DNA from: Methanobacteriota archaeon
Lineage (GTDB): Archaea > Thermoplasmatota > Poseidoniia > Poseidoniales > Poseidoniaceae
Assembly (NCBI GenBank): GCA_011522915.1
Contig: WTIA01000111.1
Coordinates: forward strand, 1 to 41,221
DNA length: 41,221 nucleotides
Reading direction: 5' to 3'
Shown: positions 27,244-36,643 of the stretch, piece after piece
Numbering within the stretch: position 1 is the first letter of the stretch
How the letters are laid out: every line of letters begins with the position of its first letter
Position numbers and translations under genes: made by a program
The notes under the pieces: model-generated
Seen by the model: the letters and a program-made list of their open reading frames with translations, nothing else
Told to the model about the DNA's origin: nothing
Database searches by the model: none

Positions 27244-28266
27244 ATGGGGCCTCTTCACTGCATCGTAAATCCTGCCAGCAGAGACCATACTTGCGGCAAG
27301 AGATGGCCCGCAGTTTCCGTAAAATTAGAGTCTAAAGGTTTCGAAGTGATTACTCACATGACCACAAAAGTTGGCCATGCAAGCGAAATCGCTTGGGAAT
27401 TAAGACAACAAAACGTCGAAGGTCCAATAGTTGCAGTTGGTGGTGATGGAACTGTTCACGAGGTTGCAAGTGCGCTAAGAGGTAGCGATATTGCCCTTGG
27501 TATTCTTCCCTTTGGTTCAGGTAATGATTATGCAATTACTCAGGGTATTTCCAGAAAAAATGTCGACCAAGCGATTGACGTTTTGGTAAATGGCGTAGAT
27601 CGCAGATGTGCAGCATGGAGATTGGAAGGATTCCCCGCCTCTGCAACTGGAGATTATCCTGCTCCTAAATCGAATGAATGGGATGGCCTTCCTAGCCAAA
27701 AAGGAAGGGTTGTAAGATGGGTGTTCCTTGAATCGGATTCAGGAATCACAAGCGCCATTTCTAGAGCAAAATTGTCTAGAGCTAAGTGGATAAGAGGGAA
27801 CAAGAAATATACGTATCTTGGAATTACAACAATCCCATTTTGGAAGAGAAGGAAAGTATGGTTGAAATTGGATGATTCGGAAGGCCAAATAATCGATTTC
27901 ACAATGTTTGCTGCAACAACAGGAGAAACATTCGGCGGCGGTTACATGGTATGCCCTGGGGTGACTCCATTGGATGAAGATGGACAGATAATGTATGCAC
28001 CTCGGCTATCGAGGTTAGCAATGCTGTCTTTAATGGGGCCGATGAAAAAAGGTAAGCACGTAGGTAAATGGGGCATTACGATGCAAAAAGCCAACCGTAT
28101 TGAGATAAAACCAGTAAATTCCGATGGCACAGTATCAGAGAAGCCCACTCCACTGTCAACATGGGTTCAAGCGGATGGAGAACCAATTATTCTTAGTCCA
28201 GCAACTCTAGAGTGGCACACCCAGCAATTACTGGTTCGTGGTGCTAAAGATGTTGATTGGGCCTAG
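27244..28266 (+). CDS. Diacylglycerol-kinase-family lipid kinase
   Basis: ATP-dependent kinase of the DAGK/YegS/BmrU family, acting on a lipid alcohol. The 340-aa protein opens with HCIVNPASRDHTCGK, then has the nucleotide-binding VAVGGDGTVHEVASAL (about residue 62) and LPFGSGNDYA (about 95), the two hallmark motifs. A C-terminal beta-sandwich follows with FAATTGETFGGGYMVCP and the final QADGEP element. In archaea such enzymes could phosphorylate isoprenoid or sphingoid-like alcohols, for example in membrane-lipid recycling; the substrate is not decided by sequence. A long central basic stretch (ESDSGITSAISRAKLSR) may contact the membrane. Its stop codon interlocks with that of the convergent lipoprotein gene in CTAG. 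Confidence 0.9.
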   Translation: MGPLHCIVNPASRDHTCGKRWPAVSVKLESKGFEVITHMTTKVGHASEIAWELRQQNVEGPIVAVGGDGTVHEVASALRGSDIALGILPFGSGNDYAITQGISRKNVDQAIDVLVNGVDRRCAAWRLEGFPASATGDYPAPKSNEWDGLPSQKGRVVRWVFLESDSGITSAISRAKLSRAKWIRGNKKYTYLGITTIPFWKRRKVWLKLDDSEGQIIDFTMFAATTGETFGGGYMVCPGVTPLDEDGQIMYAPRLSRLAMLSLMGPMKKGKHVGKWGITMQKANRIEIKPVNSDGTVSEKPTPLSTWVQADGEPIILSPATLEWHTQQLLVRGAKDVDWA

Positions 28267-29633
28267 AATGAGAAGTCGCTAAACTCTTCATCATCTGCTA
28301 TCGATGCACGCTTATTTTCTACTCGTGGTTGAGGTTCTGGTTCAGGCTCGGTTGTTCTTGCTGCACGCTTTTTGACAGAGCGGCGCTTCACTGGCTTTGC
28401 TGCCTTTGTTGGTTCAGCCGCCCTTGTTGGTTGAGTAGCACGAGACATGCTGGAGGAGAAATGTTCTCTACGTTCTGGCTGAGGTTGTGTAGAGACAACT
28501 CCTGCAGAAGGCATTGGCGTACTCGAAATATCAGGAACTGAAGAAGAGACGGGTTGAGATTCTTCCATATTTTTTGCCTCACTTGTGACAACTACTGAAT
28601 TTCCACCTCCAAATGTCTTTGGCCCATCATCACTACCTCCCGATTGCAATACACTATCTAGGCTAAATCCAGGGATTGCAACATCCTTTTCTTTCTGTTT
28701 TTTCGGTGGAGGTGATGATTTTGCCGCCTTCTTAGCTCGGTCGGTTGCACTTTCAAGACCCTCTTTCTTAGATCGCTTCAAATCCTTTTTCATTTGCACA
28801 GACTTGGCGAATCCTTCTCTTCCCATTAGGGCTTCAGCCGTTGCTTTGGCGCCTTGCCTAACAACCATCGTTGAGAAGATGAAAAGTCCTACACCTCCAC
28901 CGACTCCTACAACTAAGAAGAATAGAATGAAAGTCCATCCTCCGAAAATATCGGTATCTCCGAGGGAGTATTCATCATCATGACCTCCCTTTAGACTTAC
29001 AACACCTTGTTCTGTTTTGATGCTTGTGACAATCATGCCATGGCCCTGACCTTCTAAGTCACAGGTTTCACTGGAAACTCCACCGAGACCGTTTCCGTCT
29101 AATACGTAGCCCTTCAACTCAATAGCCTCATGCCAATGTTGTAGAATATTCAATCCGTCAGCTACATTTTCTGATGCAGGAATTATGCCAATGACTTCCC
29201 AGTCATTTTCGTTGTCTGAAAGTTTAGAGCCTACTGCTTCGCTGGGATTTAGTGGAGCAGACCAATCCTTCAGACTAATTCTGCCAGCTTTTCCTTCTTC
29301 AACTGCTTCAGCAGAACTCCATGTCATTTTGTGAATAATTACCGCTGCTCCCATCGCAGATTGGACATCTGACAAATCAGGGTGTTCAGAATAGATCTCT
29401 GAGGAAATTAGCATGCCTGTAACCTTCATTTCGGATTCTCCACATCCTACAATCGAGAGATTCTCTTCAAATCCACCACCCATTTTTGACTTAACTACAG
29501 CACTATCACCGTTTATATCGACATGGACCTGACCATCTCCAGTACCCCATTCTGGGGTGTCATTGTAGATACATCCAGCCATGAACATCAACAACACCAG
29601 CGCCATCCCTAGACGCGTTCGTGTGCGGGCCAT
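28263..29633 (-). CDS. Lipoprotein-signal membrane protein with basic cytoplasmic tail
   Basis: I start at the ATG at 29633 (MARTRTRLGMALVLLMFMAGC). The upstream 43 codons of the track ORF run through the tRNA-Ser gene and cannot be part of it. The 456-aa product has a signal peptide ending in the lipobox-like MAGC, an extracytoplasmic domain to about residue 230 with three further cysteines, and one strong membrane helix (GWTFILFFLVVGVGGGVGLFIF). Its cytoplasmic tail begins with charged helices (KKDLKRSKKEGLE) and ends in Pro/Ala/Lys/Arg-rich low complexity and an acidic terminus. The topology suggests a sensor or anchor linking the outside to a nucleic-acid- or protein-binding tail. I recognise no family. 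Confidence 0.75.
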   Translation of the reverse strand: MARTRTRLGMALVLLMFMAGCIYNDTPEWGTGDGQVHVDINGDSAVVKSKMGGGFEENLSIVGCGESEMKVTGMLISSEIYSEHPDLSDVQSAMGAAVIIHKMTWSSAEAVEEGKAGRISLKDWSAPLNPSEAVGSKLSDNENDWEVIGIIPASENVADGLNILQHWHEAIELKGYVLDGNGLGGVSSETCDLEGQGHGMIVTSIKTEQGVVSLKGGHDDEYSLGDTDIFGGWTFILFFLVVGVGGGVGLFIFSTMVVRQGAKATAEALMGREGFAKSVQMKKDLKRSKKEGLESATDRAKKAAKSSPPPKKQKEKDVAIPGFSLDSVLQSGGSDDGPKTFGGGNSVVVTSEAKNMEESQPVSSSVPDISSTPMPSAGVVSTQPQPERREHFSSSMSRATQPTRAAEPTKAAKPVKRRSVKKRAARTTEPEPEPQPRVENKRASIADDEEFSDFSF

Positions 29634-29706
29634 GCGCGGGCTACGGAGCCTTGAGTTGTTGAACCCTTTCCAAGAATTGGCAAATTTTGGGTACGAAATT
29701 TTGAGG

Positions 29707-29789
29707 CGCGGAGAGAGAGATTCGAACTCCCGTGTCCGAGGGACAGTGGATTTCAAGTCCACCGCAATACCAGGCTATGCGATCTCCGC
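29707..29789 (-). tRNA. tRNA-Ser (anticodon UGA)
   Basis: Minus-strand cloverleaf with acceptor GCGGAGA/TCTCCGC. The anticodon stem GTGGA/TCCAC encloses loop CTTGAAA, so the anticodon is TGA, reading UCA codons. A long variable arm TGTCC-CTC-GGACA makes it class II. The T arm is GGGAG-TTCGAAT-CTCTC. The discriminator is G and the next bases read CCT, so CCA is not fully encoded and must be added enzymatically. It sits between the SCO-like gene and the lipoprotein gene, all on the minus strand. Confidence 0.93.
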
Positions 29790-29832: not shown

Positions 29833-31566
29833 TCAATCTTCACGACTTGAAGCGATTATAGCGAGTCCTAAGCCAGTAATTACGGTCACTGCGCTAAAGC
29901 CTGGAAGGCCATTATCACTATCTCCGGGCCCAGATTTCAAATTGGCAGCTCTCCTGACGTCCTCGACAAATAAGTCTACATCCCAATCATAACCAACGAA
30001 TACTACTTTTGGCTTCCAATCAGCGTCTAGTATGAATGTTTGAGTAGAATGTGAGGTTGAGGTTTCATTCTTTTCTTCTTCAGGGTCGACTAATGGTGAT
30101 GGCAAGTTATCAGCATCTTGCCCATTCGCAACCCATGCGTAATGGGATGCATCGTCTATCAGCATGCTCTCATTTGCACTATCTGATGTTGACATCCAAT
30201 GACTAAACGAACCCATATCATGCCACATATACAGTTCATATTCAGATTCTATTGAGTTGATTGAAGTAACATCAGCACCACTAGTCATTAATTCAACATC
30301 GTTGTTTTCTAGTGTTTGAATCGTGTGTTTCATGGCACTGATATTGTTTGTATCGAAATATTTGTTATCGAACAATGCATAATTACCATCAGGGTAAACA
30401 ACACCTAACTTGTGAATCATGTAAGAATCAGGTGCAGGAATCGAATCATCGCTTGTGGAGTTTGGTGCCCAAACAATGTGTTGCTTGTCTACTAACATAT
30501 CCATTCCTACACTACTTTCATTCCAGGATTCTGTACCTTCGTCCCAGTAATGTAATTGCCACCACCATGAATAATCTGCAGGTGCCTCTATGCCGTTAAT
30601 TGTAGTCATGTAGTGGCCCCAATCAGAATCAGGTGCTACAAATGAGTCCAAAGCTCCAAGTGACATGTGCCAAGCATTTATTTCGCTAAGTTCAGAAATT
30701 TCGCTGGCACCATCTGATTGTACGATTACAAATGTATCATTATCGCTTTGCGGAGTTGGAATTGCAATATCATCGGTTGAATTAGGTGCGAATGCAAGGT
30801 GACCTACATCTATTGAATCAATTCCAACATCAGCACTATTCCAAGAATTGCTTGACTCATTCCAAGAATGCAATTCCCACCACCATGAATAATCTGAAGG
30901 CGCATTGTCATTGTTTATTCCTGAAACAAATGTCCCCCATGTGCTATAACTAGAGTTGATGATCCAATCTTCCTGATATGCTGAAGCTGTTAGTTGGTCT
31001 AAGCCGGTAGGCATAACTTCGTGGGATGAGGTTTCTCCGTCCGGCATAACCACCATTACAGTGGAACCATCACCGGATTCGTGATTGTGAGCATTGCTAT
31101 CTTCGTGTTCGTGATTTTCAATTTCTTCAGTAAGCACCGATATTCCGAAGTCTTTCCAAACCATCTCCAAATCTTCCAACTCAGCGGTTAAGTGAGGCCA
31201 CGTCGCACCATAATCTTCCATGTATTCTCTAAGTACGGCAGGACTGTCGGTAGCAGGGTCAACGGTGATTGAGATAAATTGGTAATCAACGTCATCTAAT
31301 TGCTTCTCGGCTTGGACCAGGTTACTTGTAATAACAGGGCATACATCAGGACATGTTGTAAAAATGAATGCGACAACTACGACATCAGGATTCCCAGTTT
31401 GGAGAGAATAATAATCATAATTTTGGTTGATTAAAACGTGGTTTGAGACGGTGACTCTGTCCAAAACGTATCCATTCCAATGATGGTCACTGTTAGTATC
31501 TGCTACACTAGTGGGTACTGTTGCCACAGTTAGCACAACAATACAAGCAATCACCAAAAATCGCAT
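29833..31566 (-). CDS. SCO1/SenC copper-chaperone domain with triple-repeat insertion and PGF-type anchor
   Basis: The ATG at 31566 (MRFLVIACIVVLT) begins a clean signal peptide; the TTG at 31587 would add seven residues. Numbering from the track start, SCO elements are FIFTTCPDVCPV (copper-binding Cys79 and Cys83), FISITVDPATDSP and WKDFGI up to about 150. The closing HSTQTFILDADWKPKVVF (candidate ligand His513) comes only near 513-540. Between them lie a His-rich stretch and three tandem ~106-residue repeats (about 175-280, 285-388, 392-498) with PDG, DYSWWWxLH and APNS elements, recalling DUF4430-like secreted domains. The protein ends LPGF, hydrophobic helix, SRED, as in PGF-CTERM proteins processed by archaeosortase. 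Last gene of the oxidase operon, so CuA assembly is its likely job. Confidence 0.88.
   Translation of the reverse strand: MRFLVIACIVVLTVATVPTSVADTNSDHHWNGYVLDRVTVSNHVLINQNYDYYSLQTGNPDVVVVAFIFTTCPDVCPVITSNLVQAEKQLDDVDYQFISITVDPATDSPAVLREYMEDYGATWPHLTAELEDLEMVWKDFGISVLTEEIENHEHEDSNAHNHESGDGSTVMVVMPDGETSSHEVMPTGLDQLTASAYQEDWIINSSYSTWGTFVSGINNDNAPSDYSWWWELHSWNESSNSWNSADVGIDSIDVGHLAFAPNSTDDIAIPTPQSDNDTFVIVQSDGASEISELSEINAWHMSLGALDSFVAPDSDWGHYMTTINGIEAPADYSWWWQLHYWDEGTESWNESSVGMDMLVDKQHIVWAPNSTSDDSIPAPDSYMIHKLGVVYPDGNYALFDNKYFDTNNISAMKHTIQTLENNDVELMTSGADVTSINSIESEYELYMWHDMGSFSHWMSTSDSANESMLIDDASHYAWVANGQDADNLPSPLVDPEEEKNETSTSHSTQTFILDADWKPKVVFVGYDWDVDLFVEDVRRAANLKSGPGDSDNGLPGFSAVTVITGLGLAIIASSRED
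30559..30896. repeat. Direct-repeat DNA within the SCO-like gene
   Basis: The 20-base CCACCACCATGAATAATCTG occurs at 30559 and again at 30877, exactly 318 bases (106 codons) apart. It encodes the same DYSWWW segment of repeat units two and one. Such nucleotide identity inside otherwise diverged units indicates duplication with local conservation or gene conversion. Confidence 0.85.
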
Positions 31567-31614: not shown

Positions 31615-32019
31615 TCACTCTGTTACGTACGAATAATCCCAGTTAGGTGTGCACCAATCTGGTAATTGATCGATTCCTGCAGGGTTGGAAAGTCCAATTC
31701 CCCATAGCATTAGCGCAGCAAAGATTACTGGGAATAATGCAGTTCTTGTGTAAATGAATGGGTCTCCTTTCAAGTGCATGAAAAATGCCGCAATTCCGTA
31801 TCCCTTAATGATACCAACAACGATTAGAACTCCCCAAACTGCAGTTCTTGTAATTTCAATATCTGTACCCGGGATAGTTTCGAAGAAAACTGCAGCAACT
31901 TCGAATAGAGTGAAGAACATCAGAATTAGGAAGTTAACATAGTAAACATCCTTTCCGATTATGTCAGCCATTTTCTGGAATATTCCTGCAATTGGTCCTG
32001 TATACTTGTGTTCGCCCAT
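31615..32019 (-). CDS. Cytochrome c oxidase subunit IV (prokaryotic type)
   Basis: A 134-aa membrane protein with three helices: NFLILMFFTLFEVAAVFF, AVWGVLIVVGIIKGYGIAAFFMHL and ALFPVIFAALMLWGIGL. The GIIKGYGIAAFFMHLKGD segment is the recognisable core of the CoxD/CyoD/COX4-pro family, with the conserved lysine and FMHL. It stabilises the oxidase rather than carrying a cofactor. It lies nine bases after subunit III and about 48 bases before the SCO-like gene on the minus strand. The start ATG (MGEHKYTGPIAG) is preceded by AGGTGATAAA. Identification is firm as a family member given context. Confidence 0.88.
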   Translation of the reverse strand: MGEHKYTGPIAGIFQKMADIIGKDVYYVNFLILMFFTLFEVAAVFFETIPGTDIEITRTAVWGVLIVVGIIKGYGIAAFFMHLKGDPFIYTRTALFPVIFAALMLWGIGLSNPAGIDQLPDWCTPNWDYSYVTE

Positions 32020-32028
32020 TTTATCACC

Positions 32029-33336
32029 TCAATACAAATAGAATGCTGGGAAGATGGCAACCCACGCCAAATCCACGAAGTGCCAGTACAAACCGAAGTA
32101 TTCGATTCCCTGGCCGTTATGTTCATCATAACCGTTCTCTAGGACATCCGCCTTGAAAATCATGAATAGCATAACTAACAATCCAATGAATACGTGCAGA
32201 CCGTGTGCTCCAGTTGCAACGTAGAATATTGAACCAGCTTGTGTATCAATAGTAAATCCTTCAGCGATTAAGTGGCTCCACTCAACCAACTTCAATACGA
32301 TAAACATTGAACCAAGTGCTAGAGTGATGATAAGATAATTTCTGACAGCCTTCTTTCGTGTTGGGAATAGTTTGGCCATCAGTGCGTTCTTTGAAGGCTC
32401 CCAGTTTACGTCCTTCGCAGTCTTCAATGCCAGTACGATGGTGTATGAGGAAATAATTAGAGCAAAAGTGTTGATTGCTCCAGGTAGTAATGTCCCGATT
32501 TCGTGACGCAGTAAATCAGACGCGGTTGTGGTATCAACAACTTCACACTTTCCTGCATTTACTGCCCATTCAGTACACCATCCAGTTCTCATTCTGAGAT
32601 AGGATGAGAAGAAGGATGCGAAAACCATGGTTTCAGAGATTAGGAAAATCCACATTCCAGCCTTGCGTATATCTTGTCCTTTGAATGGAGCAGAGGTAGC
32701 GATTTGTTCATGGTGTCCTTTGAGATCTTCATTCCACCAGTTGCCGATTCCGATAATCATTATCGCTGCACCTGCAACAGACATCCCGAAGTCCCCCATT
32801 TCAGCTTGGTAGTCTAAGCCAAGTAGAGACTTACAGGTGTTTACGAATCCGGGGAATCCAATCATGAAGAACATGATACCTGCTGCCATTAGAATAGGTG
32901 AGGCCGAACCGTGGTGCTCTTCGTGGTCGTCACCGTGGTGATGGTGGTCGTCCTCTTCTTCTGGTTGAATACTATTGTAGAATCCAGAAATACCGTAGAA
33001 GGCAGCATAGATTATCATCATTACAAGAATCGTTTTTCCTGCGGTTACCCATGTTAGGTAAGAGAGGTGAGCATCAATATCTGCTTCGTGAGCCTCATGC
33101 CAAGCATCGGCTGCAGCTTCTTGTTCTGCTAGAGTACCTGTTTCATTAGCTGTGTTCCAACTAGCAACCGCTTCCTCCAAGTCATGGTGGGCTGCATCCC
33201 AGTCGTTGTGTTTGACAGTACCTACTCCGACTGTAAAGGCACCGTAAGCAGCACCTCCAACGGATAATAGAATAACAGATACGATAACTGCTCTCATCCA
33301 GACATCATTCTTGACATCGTGAAGACTTCCGCTCAT
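32029..33336 (-). CDS. coxC: Cytochrome c oxidase subunit III with N-terminal extension
   Basis: The standard seven-helix subunit III core begins near residue 220: KAGMWIFLISETMVFASFFSSYL, GTLLPGAINTFALIISSYTIVLAL, FYVATGAHGLHVFIGLL and EYFGLYWHFVDLAWVAIF at the C-terminus. It is preceded by ~210 extra residues with about four hydrophobic helices (about 15-37, 95-118, 145-165, 185-200), an external alanine/histidine-rich loop (about 43-90) and a His/Asp cluster at 126-142 (DDHHHHGDDHEEHHG) that could bind copper or zinc. The 435-aa length is well above the usual ~200-270. The start overlaps the subunit I stop by four bases. The extension might be a fused accessory membrane subunit. Confidence 0.92.
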   Translation of the reverse strand: MSGSLHDVKNDVWMRAVIVSVILLSVGGAAYGAFTVGVGTVKHNDWDAAHHDLEEAVASWNTANETGTLAEQEAAADAWHEAHEADIDAHLSYLTWVTAGKTILVMMIIYAAFYGISGFYNSIQPEEEDDHHHHGDDHEEHHGSASPILMAAGIMFFMIGFPGFVNTCKSLLGLDYQAEMGDFGMSVAGAAIMIIGIGNWWNEDLKGHHEQIATSAPFKGQDIRKAGMWIFLISETMVFASFFSSYLRMRTGWCTEWAVNAGKCEVVDTTTASDLLRHEIGTLLPGAINTFALIISSYTIVLALKTAKDVNWEPSKNALMAKLFPTRKKAVRNYLIITLALGSMFIVLKLVEWSHLIAEGFTIDTQAGSIFYVATGAHGLHVFIGLLVMLFMIFKADVLENGYDEHNGQGIEYFGLYWHFVDLAWVAIFPAFYLY

Positions 33337-35627
33337 GATTTCGCCTCCTTATTCCAAAGATTGTTCATCGTTCTAAACGGAGCCTTGAGTATCGATTCGA
33401 GTTTCGTCTCGTGATGGTCGTTTGGATCGTTAGCGTCTAGTTGAGTTGGCTCAACAGCAAATGAAGGAGTTGGTGGTGGTGAGGTGACCGCCCATTCTAG
33501 CGACCATCCGCCCCATGGGTCCTTTCCAACCTTCTCGCCCTTCTTTACCGAGCGTACGATGTTCCAAACGAGCAGTAGTTGAGAGATACCGAATATGATT
33601 GCAAATGTCGAGATTGCCATGTTTAGTTCAGCAAATCCAGATTCAACCGCATAGGTGTGGGTTCTTCTTGGCATTCCCATAATTCCTACAGCGTGCATTG
33701 GCCAGAACGCAGCGTTGTACGAACTGAATGCGATTAAGAAGTGCCACAAACCGAGGGTCTCGTTCATCTTACGTCCTGTTACCTTAGGGAACCAGTAGTA
33801 TATTCCAGAGAATAGCGCGAAGATGATACCGCCGATGAATACGTAGTGGAAGTGTGCTACAACGAAGTATCCATCGTGGAATTGTGTGTCAAGTCCTGCA
33901 ACAGGGAAGAACATTCCAGACAATCCACCGAGTGTGAATGTAATCAGGAATCCTAGTGACCACAGAGTGTGAGTCTTGAACACAAGACTTCCACCCCATA
34001 AGGTAGCAAGCCAATTGAAAATCTTAACACCGGTTGGAATTGCAACCGCCATCGTAGTAATCATGAAAGCAGCACGCCATGCTGGACTCATTCCACTGGT
34101 AAGCATGTGGTGCCCCCATACGATGAAACCAACAACTCCGATTCCTACCATTGCGTAAACCATTGAGCGGTAACCGAAGATAGATCTCCTCGCGCTGGTA
34201 GCAAGTACTTCAGATACTATACCAAATGCTGGCACAACTACGACGTACACTTCAGGATGTCCGAAGAACCAGAACAAGTGCTGGAATAGCAGCGGGTCTC
34301 CACCAGCGGTGAAGAATGTGGTTCCAATAGTTGAATCAAATAGCAGGAAGAATACACCGATTACGAATGCTGGTAGGCTTACGTATAGCATGAATACGCT
34401 GATTAGAACAGACCAGGTGAATAATGGCATCTTCATCCAGCCAACACCCCTAGCACGCATTGTGAAGGTTGTTGTTACGAAGTTAACACCAGATAGTGTT
34501 GAGGAAGCACCCAATAGAGCAATTCCAGAAATGAAGGCGATTGTACCTGGGTTTGGACCACCTGCATGTCCAGATAAACTGGAGTATGGCGGGTACATAA
34601 CCCAAGTGATGTCCGCAGCCTCTCCACTCCATACACCAGTGAATATCAGAGGTGCTGCAGCCACAATTAACCAGAATCCAAGAGCGTTAATTCTAGGGAA
34701 TGCCAGGTCCTTTGCACCGATTTGCAGTGGTAGAATGTAGTTCATGAAACCAGCAATCATTGGCATTGCCGCCAAGAAAATCATGGTTGTACCGTGTAAG
34801 GTGAAGAACGAGTTGTACTCCGCCTGAGTTAGGAAATCATTCTCTGGTAGTGCCAACTGGATACGGAATAGCAGTGCCAGTAATCCACCAACAAGGAAGA
34901 AGAAGAATCCGTACAAGAAGTACAGAATACCAACCTGCTTGTGGTCAGTGGTAGTTAACCAAGGCTTCAGGTATGCCCAGAAATTACCGATGGAGAAGTT
35001 GTCAGGGTTGCGTGTGTAGAATACCCACATACTTCCAACCAAGATCAATCCCAATGCCAATCCAATTACAGTCATTAGAATGGTCAGTGCTTCAGCGCTT
35101 GGAGCACTTGGGTTGGCATTGATACCAGCGACCTCGACATCTAGTTGGTTCCACTCGTCACCAGATGGAGCGCCGTTTCCATTTACTGCGTTTCCAAAGA
35201 TTAGGAAGCTTGCAATTGCGGTGTCATCTGCTGGAGCAGTCCACTTGAATTCCCATGTTCTGCGGTCATTGATGTCTAATGAGTGAGTGAGTCCACCATC
35301 CATTTCCTGTGCGACATTTCCGTCGATATCAGGTACTGATTCTAGTACTCCTCCACCTTTTAGGATAATGCTGAATCCACCATTTTGGTCTGGATTGTCG
35401 ATAGGAACATTGTCATTTGATACTGTAAGGGTGAAGAGGTATTCTTCAGACGCATTGAATACATCAGGAAGTCCGTCTACGGTAATTACAGTGTCTGCAC
35501 TCATTCCTCCGTGACAGCCACAACCACCCTCTGTAACGATACCAGTTTGTCTTGCCTCAAATGAGGTAGTTGATGCTAGGGCGACGAGTAAAATCGCCAG
35601 TACTGCGATGCTTCTTCCCTTCATCAT
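33333..35627 (-). CDS. coxA: Cytochrome c oxidase subunit I with extra N-terminal secreted domain
   Basis: Catalytic subunit of a proton-pumping aa3-type oxygen reductase. Residues 1-24 look like a signal peptide. Residues 36-39 read Cys-Gly-Cys-His (context GGCGCHGG), then about 130 residues of beta-rich domain resembling Reeler/choice-of-anchor V domains. A helix at about 180-203 leads to the oxidase core from about 222. Core ligands are His278 (LHGTTMIF), His457 and Tyr461 in FFGHPEVYVVVVP, His506-His507, and His592/His594 in AHFHYVFIGG. The GHPEVY glutamate marks the A1 class. At 764 aa it is about 200 longer than ordinary subunit I. It overlaps subunits II and III by four bases each. Confidence 0.95.
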   Translation of the reverse strand: MMKGRSIAVLAILLVALASTTSFEARQTGIVTEGGCGCHGGMSADTVITVDGLPDVFNASEEYLFTLTVSNDNVPIDNPDQNGGFSIILKGGGVLESVPDIDGNVAQEMDGGLTHSLDINDRRTWEFKWTAPADDTAIASFLIFGNAVNGNGAPSGDEWNQLDVEVAGINANPSAPSAEALTILMTVIGLALGLILVGSMWVFYTRNPDNFSIGNFWAYLKPWLTTTDHKQVGILYFLYGFFFFLVGGLLALLFRIQLALPENDFLTQAEYNSFFTLHGTTMIFLAAMPMIAGFMNYILPLQIGAKDLAFPRINALGFWLIVAAAPLIFTGVWSGEAADITWVMYPPYSSLSGHAGGPNPGTIAFISGIALLGASSTLSGVNFVTTTFTMRARGVGWMKMPLFTWSVLISVFMLYVSLPAFVIGVFFLLFDSTIGTTFFTAGGDPLLFQHLFWFFGHPEVYVVVVPAFGIVSEVLATSARRSIFGYRSMVYAMVGIGVVGFIVWGHHMLTSGMSPAWRAAFMITTMAVAIPTGVKIFNWLATLWGGSLVFKTHTLWSLGFLITFTLGGLSGMFFPVAGLDTQFHDGYFVVAHFHYVFIGGIIFALFSGIYYWFPKVTGRKMNETLGLWHFLIAFSSYNAAFWPMHAVGIMGMPRRTHTYAVESGFAELNMAISTFAIIFGISQLLLVWNIVRSVKKGEKVGKDPWGGWSLEWAVTSPPPTPSFAVEPTQLDANDPNDHHETKLESILKAPFRTMNNLWNKEAKS

Positions 35628-36643
35628 CTCAACTCCTCATGTTCGAAGTAAACACCAAAGTCGGCATCACAAGTCATTCCTTCTCTAGCGACAACTTCAA
35701 CTTGGCCGTACATTAGAGAGTGCTCTTTACCACAATACTCAGCGCACCTGATTGGGAAAACTCCAGCCTCGTTTGGCTGTACATACATCCAAGTTCCTGA
35801 ATCTAGACCAGGAACTGCATCTTCTTTCATTCCCCACTCTTGGAGCCAGAATGCGTGTTGTACACCTTGGTAAGTGTTGGTAGCATCAAAGTCGGATTCT
35901 CTTTCAGCATTCATGCTGAATATGTTGAACAGTACGTTTTCATCACAAGGAATGATTAGGTTGCCGCTCATTTTGTAGATGTACAATTCTTCTCCATCAG
36001 AATCAACTTGTCTCTCAGGTATGTGTTGCCATCTGTGGATGGTATTTCCATCAGCATCTTGAATGTCTACACTTTGTGGAATTGTCTCATCAAATGATCT
36101 GTCCATTGTTGTTACATTGGTCAAATCCAATGTCTCGGATAGACCAAGAGAAGGTCTCGCCCACTTTACTAAGGCAGAAGTCGCACCATCGCCAGCATCG
36201 ATGAATAATCCACTAGAATTCCAAGTTACATCATGGCCTGTGTCCATGTCTTCCCAGGTTAATTCGTCATGGTAATAGAAGTCCCAATACCACTGCAAAC
36301 CATTGACCTCGACAGTGAACGTATCTTCTTCCTGAAGATTTTGTACTTCACCCCAAACAATGTTCATCGAACCGAATGCGAGAATTGTGACCCAAATTAC
36401 CAGAATAGTGGGACCCACGAACCAAGCCAATTCGAGGTCAAAGTTGTGGCGCTCCTTTGGAAACGTCCCGACTTTGATTTCTTCCTTCCCTACAGGTTCT
36501 AAGCCATCTCTATAGCGCAGTACGGCGATTAGCAACCAAGCGAAGGTGAATAGCCCGACCACGATAGACCAAAAAAGAAATTTATCGTAGAGAATATTGA
36601 ACACTGTGTATTCGTCAGGCCATAACTCACGAGATGCGCTCAT
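35624..36643 (-). CDS. coxB: Cytochrome c oxidase subunit II with CuA site and insertion
   Basis: Accepts electrons from a soluble donor through the dinuclear CuA centre. Two membrane helices lie at about 20-43 and 70-96, followed by LQWYWDFYY (about 116-124), the aromatic electron-entry motif. The CuA ligands are His263 (VQHAFWLQEW), Cys300, Glu302, Cys304, His308 and Met311 in RCAEYCGKEHSLMYG. Between the aromatic motif and the cupredoxin strand NLIIPCDENVLF there are about 105 residues, much more than the usual ~30, forming an acidic extra domain. No fused cytochrome c is present, so the donor is probably a blue-copper protein or free cytochrome. First gene of the operon. Confidence 0.94.
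   Translation of the reverse strand: MSASRELWPDEYTVFNILYDKFLFWSIVVGLFTFAWLLIAVLRYRDGLEPVGKEEIKVGTFPKERHNFDLELAWFVGPTILVIWVTILAFGSMNIVWGEVQNLQEEDTFTVEVNGLQWYWDFYYHDELTWEDMDTGHDVTWNSSGLFIDAGDGATSALVKWARPSLGLSETLDLTNVTTMDRSFDETIPQSVDIQDADGNTIHRWQHIPERQVDSDGEELYIYKMSGNLIIPCDENVLFNIFSMNAERESDFDATNTYQGVQHAFWLQEWGMKEDAVPGLDSGTWMYVQPNEAGVFPIRCAEYCGKEHSLMYGQVEVVAREGMTCDADFGVYFEHEELR

Follow-up and report, generated by a model that had tools for sequence, protein, structure and literature searches.

A probable SCO-type copper chaperone of Candidatus Poseidoniales with three beta-grasp units inserted beside the predicted copper site, and a related insert in a zinc-binding protein

The window analysed here, the whole stretch of 41,221 nucleotides of contig WTIA01000111.1, belongs to a draft genome (154 contigs, 78% complete) of a Candidatus Poseidoniales (Marine Group II) archaeon, and close relatives of the open reading frame (ORF) at 29833-31566 on the minus strand are from the same order. 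Marine Group II is uncultured and ranks among the most common groups of plankton. The ORF (29833..31566, stop codon included) encodes a SCO protein of 577 amino acids that carries three inserted units of predicted SLBB/DUF4430 type; its start is the ATG at 31566, and M1 is invariant in the alignment of 15 relatives. It is the last gene of an oxidase cluster with the order COX2-COX1-COX3-COX4-SCO, all on the minus strand: cytochrome oxidase subunit II (35624..36643; PF00116), subunit I with an N-terminal choice-of-anchor V domain (33333..35627; PF00115, NF041895), subunit III with a His-rich segment (32029..33336; PF00510) and a subunit IV-like neighbour (31615..32019; PF03626). Subunit II contains the complete CuA motif CAEYCGKEHSLM, so that a CuA site for the SCO protein to serve is encoded in the same cluster, and COX2 is its likely client. 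Among the relatives collected, COX3 and COX4 adjoin 59 of the 64 unit-bearing SCO genes and none of the ordinary ones (0/6 neighbourhoods).

In COX1 (33333-35627, minus strand), the choice-of-anchor V domain, which is fused to the oxidase core (79 bits against NF041895, cut-off 42), contains a GCGCHG motif. The His-rich acidic segment of COX3 (32029-33336, minus strand), DDHHHHGDDHEEHHG, is similar in style to the linkers of the SCO protein. Most relatives also have, next to SCO, a lipoprotein-like gene that in the window is located at 28263-29762 (minus strand) and is not assigned to a family; since the first GTG start codon of this gene overlaps with tRNA-Ser (29705-29789), translation probably begins farther downstream.

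The SCO1-SenC profile PF02630 covers only residues 44-155 of the protein (E 5.9e-20, about 71-72 bits; gathering score, 22.8 bits), marking the N-terminal part of the SCO thioredoxin core (residues 30-150; 31117..31479, minus strand). This part includes the CPDVC motif (31339..31353, minus strand), with the predicted copper-ligand cysteines C72 and C76, which align with the cysteines of the Sco structures 4hde and 1xzo and are invariant in the A1 alignment. The C-terminal part of the core, a predicted strand-strand-helix element, is found at residues 504-545 (29932..30057, minus strand) and contains the candidate copper-ligand histidine H506 (30049..30051, minus strand), which is likewise invariant in the A1 alignment and coincides with the conserved His in alignments to 1xzo and 4hde. 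Thus, about 350 residues interrupt the core between C72/C76 and H506, at the spacing given in the preliminary description; the motifs had been correctly recognized there, with the cysteines near residue 80 and the histidine near 513, these numbers having been counted from an upstream TTG, whereas numbering from the ATG yields 72/76 and 506.

When residues 153-501 were excised in silico, the PF02630 score rose from 71.0 to 80.9 bits, and the match extended across the junction to profile position 131 of 134. The insert-free sequence matched the Sco structures 4hde, 1xzo, 1on4 and 4bpy in a phmmer search; in the alignments shown, both the CxxxC motif and the histidine are in register with the solved proteins, and H506 falls on the Bacillus Sco ligand. 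Because the insert-free match is continuous, with the cysteines and the histidine in register, the insert can be assigned to the Sco loop, which in characterized Sco proteins bears an extra His and turns into a beta-hairpin when copper is bound (PMC6696091). A BLAST search of the same genome yielded two ordinary SCO genes, arranged in tandem, which encode proteins of about 195 amino acids with an N-terminal lipobox; their N-terminal halves match residues 6-148 and their C-terminal ends residues 501-547. An AlphaFold2 (AF2) model of the full-length protein was weak (mean pLDDT 66, pTM 0.42), with the strand-strand-helix element predicted at 506-541; several Sco structures are among its Foldseek matches, and at this model quality packing of residues 504-545 on the core is consistent with these matches but not proven. 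Taken together, there is very little doubt that the SCO core is split immediately before its ligand His by the inserted units, as had been suggested from the sequence. Compared with SCO1/SenC proteins (PF02630; Bacillus Sco 1xzo, S. lividans Sco 4bpy, human SCO1), the Poseidoniales protein has the same CxxxC motif and distal His, and the predicted core strands and helices, the oxidase gene neighbourhood and the predicted membrane anchoring are alike; it differs by the approximately 350 residues in the Sco loop before the His and by the probable mode of anchoring, with a C-terminal PGF-type anchor and no N-terminal lipid anchor.

The N-terminal signal peptide (residues 1-23; 31498..31566, minus strand; helix 2-15 in the AF2 model) lacks the lipobox Cys, unlike those of the two ordinary paralogues. 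At the other end, residues 553-577, GLPGFSAVTVITGLGLAIIASSRED (29836..29910, minus strand), show the arrangement typical of PGF-CTERM substrates, namely PGF, a hydrophobic stretch and a charged end, and PGF is invariant in 15 sequences of the genus. The PGF-type tail that had been proposed for this protein is therefore present in plan, but at 15.5 bits it remains below the curated cut-off of PGF_CTERM TIGR04126 (24.5 bits), and in other genera of the family PGF is often missing. The suggested search for an archaeosortase gave a clear result: the genome encodes archaeosortase A (TIGR04125, 98.1 bits; cut-off 75). The SCO protein appears to be exported and held at the outer face of the membrane by the C-terminal PGF-type anchor rather than by the N-terminal lipid anchor of its paralogues.

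The insert opens with a His-rich acidic linker, the spacer already noted in the preliminary description (residues 151-166, four His of 16, NHEHEDSNAHNHESGD; 31069..31116, minus strand). It is followed by unit 1 (residues 167-272; 30751..31068), unit 2 (277-381; 30424..30738) and unit 3 (384-494; 30085..30417), all on the minus strand. Profile-profile comparison with hhalign links units 1 and 2 with a probability of 99.8% (E 1.5e-30) and unit 3 to all units of the u1/u2 type with 97.5% (E 5e-12), in agreement with the earlier reading of three homologous repeats. Unit 3 is divergent, belongs to an older lineage in the unit tree and lacks the WWW motif, which is confined to units 1 and 2 as originally described.

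A model of unit 1, obtained from AF2 with 25 aligned units as input (pLDDT 87.8, pTM 0.79), has the topology E-E-H-E-E-E-E-E (strand-strand-helix-hairpin-strands). Its best 19 PDB matches in Foldseek are all DUF4430, transcobalamin, intrinsic factor or haptocorrin beta domains (TM 0.57-0.65 by query length), including the DUF4430 structure 3u7z (E 3e-5), with ubiquitins ranking next. Furthermore, in hhalign the units match genuine DUF4430 domains from this family of archaea (93.9%, E 1.6e-7). On this evidence from models and profiles, the three units are identified as transcobalamin-type SLBB (DUF4430) beta-grasp domains, so that the initial comparison with DUF4430 is borne out. Scans of single units against Pfam and NCBIfam gave nothing significant: the units of the window produce no PF14478 match, and the best single unit, in the relative L025, attains 19.5 bits, below the PF14478 gathering score of 23.8. 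Given single units under this cut-off and a profile-profile probability of 93.9%, we call the units DUF4430-type and not PF14478 members by cut-off; the tie to DUF4430 comes from the fold search, the profile-profile comparison and members from other genera only. In profile searches of the PDB, the sole match of unit 1 was again 3u7z, at a marginal E of 0.067, and unit 2 had chance matches only. Low-scoring matches to ILEI, FAM104, GfcC and similar proteins were rejected as chance.

The transcobalamin-like SLBB clade is marked by a hairpin after the helix (PMC1796856). The SCO units share with members of this clade (DUF4430, PF14478; 3u7z; the beta domains of transcobalamin and intrinsic factor), which provide the best fold matches, both the beta-grasp with this hairpin and an extracytoplasmic location. 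They differ in being nested in tandem within the metal loop of another domain, in the absence of an alpha toroid, in a Trp-rich WWW strand and in the scores of single units, which are below the Pfam cut-off. Within the units, not one His, Met or Cys is fully conserved (the best is a His at 62% in the unit alignment), and conservation is highest for Trp, Asp, Ser, Leu and Pro; for want of an invariant His, Met or Cys, the possibility that the units form a conserved copper site was discarded. A separate, conserved protein of ~550 amino acids, beta-propeller-like and with a bona fide C-terminal DUF4430 domain, is encoded in many genomes of the family (G000:C44:16510-16656; L065).

The SCO architecture with inserted units is order-wide in Poseidoniales. 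Among 71 distinct SCO ORFs, 64 contain units: 19 have one u-type unit, one has a single u3-type unit, 33 have two units and 11 have three. Relatives lacking the C-terminal His strand, which would have counted against a split SCO fold, were sought: the strand is kept in 63 of the 64, with one, two or three units (57 detected by regular expression and six more by reading), and the remaining sequence, L022, contains a frameshift that moves its C-terminal part to a different frame. In the unit tree, first and second units of different genera form separate groups, so the duplication must predate these genera. Unit 3 of the genus represented in the window groups with the single unit of L078, from another genus (support 0.99), and thus is not a recent copy of its neighbours; within the genus of the window it appears to have been lost in some members, and a short stump is found in its place in L047. 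Other parts of the architecture vary as well. An EGF-like Cys module follows the units in other genera; the linkers of some lineages have one His or none in the stretch counted; and the C-terminal PGF anchor was seen in the genus of the window and a few others. Members of a second family mostly combine a single unit with an N-terminal lipobox. Deep support in the SCO core tree is weak, and the tree is compatible both with a single gain of the insert followed by loss and with repeated gain.

The Sco loop has received other inserts as well. In a sister family of the class (L167-L169), the loop before the His houses a complete thioredoxin-like domain with a CxxC motif, for which AhpC-TSA, Redoxin and Thioredoxin_8 all score above cut-off, together with an EGF-like module; the nearly identical L170 (compared with L168) is in a genome of another family, possibly through contamination. 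An ordinary tandem SCO paralogue of the second family (L076:878-1630, plus strand) has a TSP3-like acidic stretch in the loop, with a TSP_3 score below the cut-off. Strongly scoring SCO genes outside the class but in the same phylum encode proteins of ordinary length (233 and 272 amino acids).

A BLAST search with the SCO protein as the query hit further large ORFs of the genus and revealed a second host of the unit, with 51% identity over one unit (E 2e-25). The hosts are ZnuA-type zinc-binding proteins of 690-1150 amino acids (PF01297, E 9e-54, 7e-45 and 5e-51) in which the ligand region DPHxW is present, and the unit is placed in the His-rich loop upstream of DPHSWLDP, directly before the ligand His. 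Matches to PF01297 were found in 33 of 60 genomes, all over the cut-off, and are split at about profile position 80-100; ZnuA was not found in the source genome, which is 78% complete. The loop comprises several hundred residues and, in L072, L074, L075 and L128-L138, also holds EF-hands and one or more two-Cys modules. In a bacterial ZnuA, the His-rich loop 124-143 precedes the ligand His147 and binds extra zinc, and its function has been called enigmatic (PMC8900738). A long His-rich loop directly before the ligand His is common to the SCO protein and the ZnuA/TroA proteins (PF01297), although the folds are unrelated and the metals differ; what sets the Poseidoniales ZnuA apart from other ZnuA/TroA proteins is the expansion of this loop, which spans several hundred residues and contains EF-hands, two-Cys modules and the SCO-type unit. 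In the unit tree, the ZnuA units branch among the SCO units, beside those of the second family. The profile used for scoring ZnuA units itself contains two of them, so the unbiased link is the BLAST match.

A survey of 194 genomes of the order gave a match to the unit in 177, and the best loci and listed ORFs of unusual length were read. All 77 ORFs read that contain a unit of at least 80 bits encode SCO, ZnuA or fragments of these. One further ORF (L146:931-2496, plus strand) encodes a blue-copper domain (PF00127), then a weakly scoring unit of DUF4430 type and, at the C-terminus, a membrane segment.

The best explanation overall, to which we assign a probability of roughly 0.6, is that the protein serves the cytochrome oxidase of Poseidoniales as its SCO copper chaperone and carries an insert for metal capture or docking. 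Its two parts differ in strength. That the protein is a CuA chaperone is quite probable: judging from family knowledge, motifs and synteny, the thioredoxin-type core would hold copper via C72, C76 and H506 and deliver it to CuA in the COX2 protein of this cluster. The role of the insert is more tentative, and we would put metal capture or docking at somewhat below even odds. Sequence and fold comparison show that the Sco loop with H506 has been opened, with a His-rich linker and three predicted beta-grasp units placed there. The insert could act as an arm whose His-rich linkers collect external metal or a metal complex, and which keeps the chaperone in place or docks it, allowing copper to arrive at the site. 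Such an arm at the copper site is the most likely role since the insert begins and ends beside the metal site. The units lack an invariant His, Met or Cys, so metal gathering, if any, would more likely be performed by the linkers; the units would then serve as a holder, a docking face or a ligand binder. A metal-related role is favoured by the finding that, in ZnuA, the unit occupies the His-rich loop and immediately precedes a zinc-ligand His. Exact geometry does not seem to be required, as the number of units varies and u3 was apparently lost within the genus.

Alternatively, the units could be a generic surface module, that is, a spacer, a shield or a lattice contact tolerated in long loops of exported proteins, with no effect on metal handling. 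This passive reading is a serious rival, to which we give about one chance in three. Surface proteins of archaea and bacteria often contain SLBB/DUF4430 domains (PMC1796856), for example, beside PQQ-type propellers, and EGF-like and TSP3-like modules enter the Sco loop too; the varying copy number and the absence of an invariant metal ligand in the units also fit this possibility. However, among the ORFs read, the strong unit is seen in the order only in SCO and ZnuA, always beside the ligand His, and the generic DUF4430 proteins of the same genomes have a clearly different version.

Two further possibilities seem unlikely. The units might recognize a soluble organic molecule, for instance a cobalamin or a complex of copper or zinc with an organic ligand, and thereby deliver complexed metal to the acceptor site. 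This would accord with their fold and topology, which are those of the transcobalamin-like SLBB clade, where B12 is contacted by the hairpin that follows the helix (PMC1796856), and with the adjacency of the unit to copper and zinc sites; transcobalamin, however, holds B12 with a second domain, the alpha toroid, which is absent from SCO, and the unit is common to two different metals. With a similarly low likelihood, the SCO protein could be a thiol-disulfide enzyme or copper sensor, with delivery left to the two ordinary paralogues of the genome. Some Sco proteins are indeed reductases or regulators (PMC6696091), and a CxxC thioredoxin occupies the same loop in the sister lineage, but it is the unit-bearing copy, not the ordinary ones, that is found in the oxidase cluster, and the ligand His is kept. 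An assembly or frame artefact fusing a SCO gene to an unrelated repeat gene, conceivable for a draft in 154 contigs at 78% completeness, was dismissed as having a negligible chance because relatives share the architecture, which occurs as a single open frame in dozens of independent genomes.

A broader and rather doubtful possibility is that the transcobalamin-type SLBB domain serves Poseidoniia as a module specifically for metal loops: transferred from gene to gene and inserted next to the metal ligand in the loops of unrelated copper and zinc proteins, it would capture scarce or organically complexed seawater metal for the neighbouring site. The novelty concerns the architecture, which recurs in two unrelated metal proteins; neither the fold nor the kind of chaperone is new. 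Searches of the literature on DUF4430, on archaeosortase in Marine Group II and on His260 with loop 8 found nothing on the SCO-unit architecture. The nested domains are cleanly excisable, so the role of the Sco loop is directly testable. The units of SCO and ZnuA also offer a handle on the role of prokaryotic DUF4430 domains and on that of the His-rich loop of ZnuA described as enigmatic (PMC8900738). An inserted domain common to a copper chaperone and a zinc-uptake protein, beside the ligand His in both, suggests that the handling of trace metals outside the cell follows a common scheme that has not been described so far.
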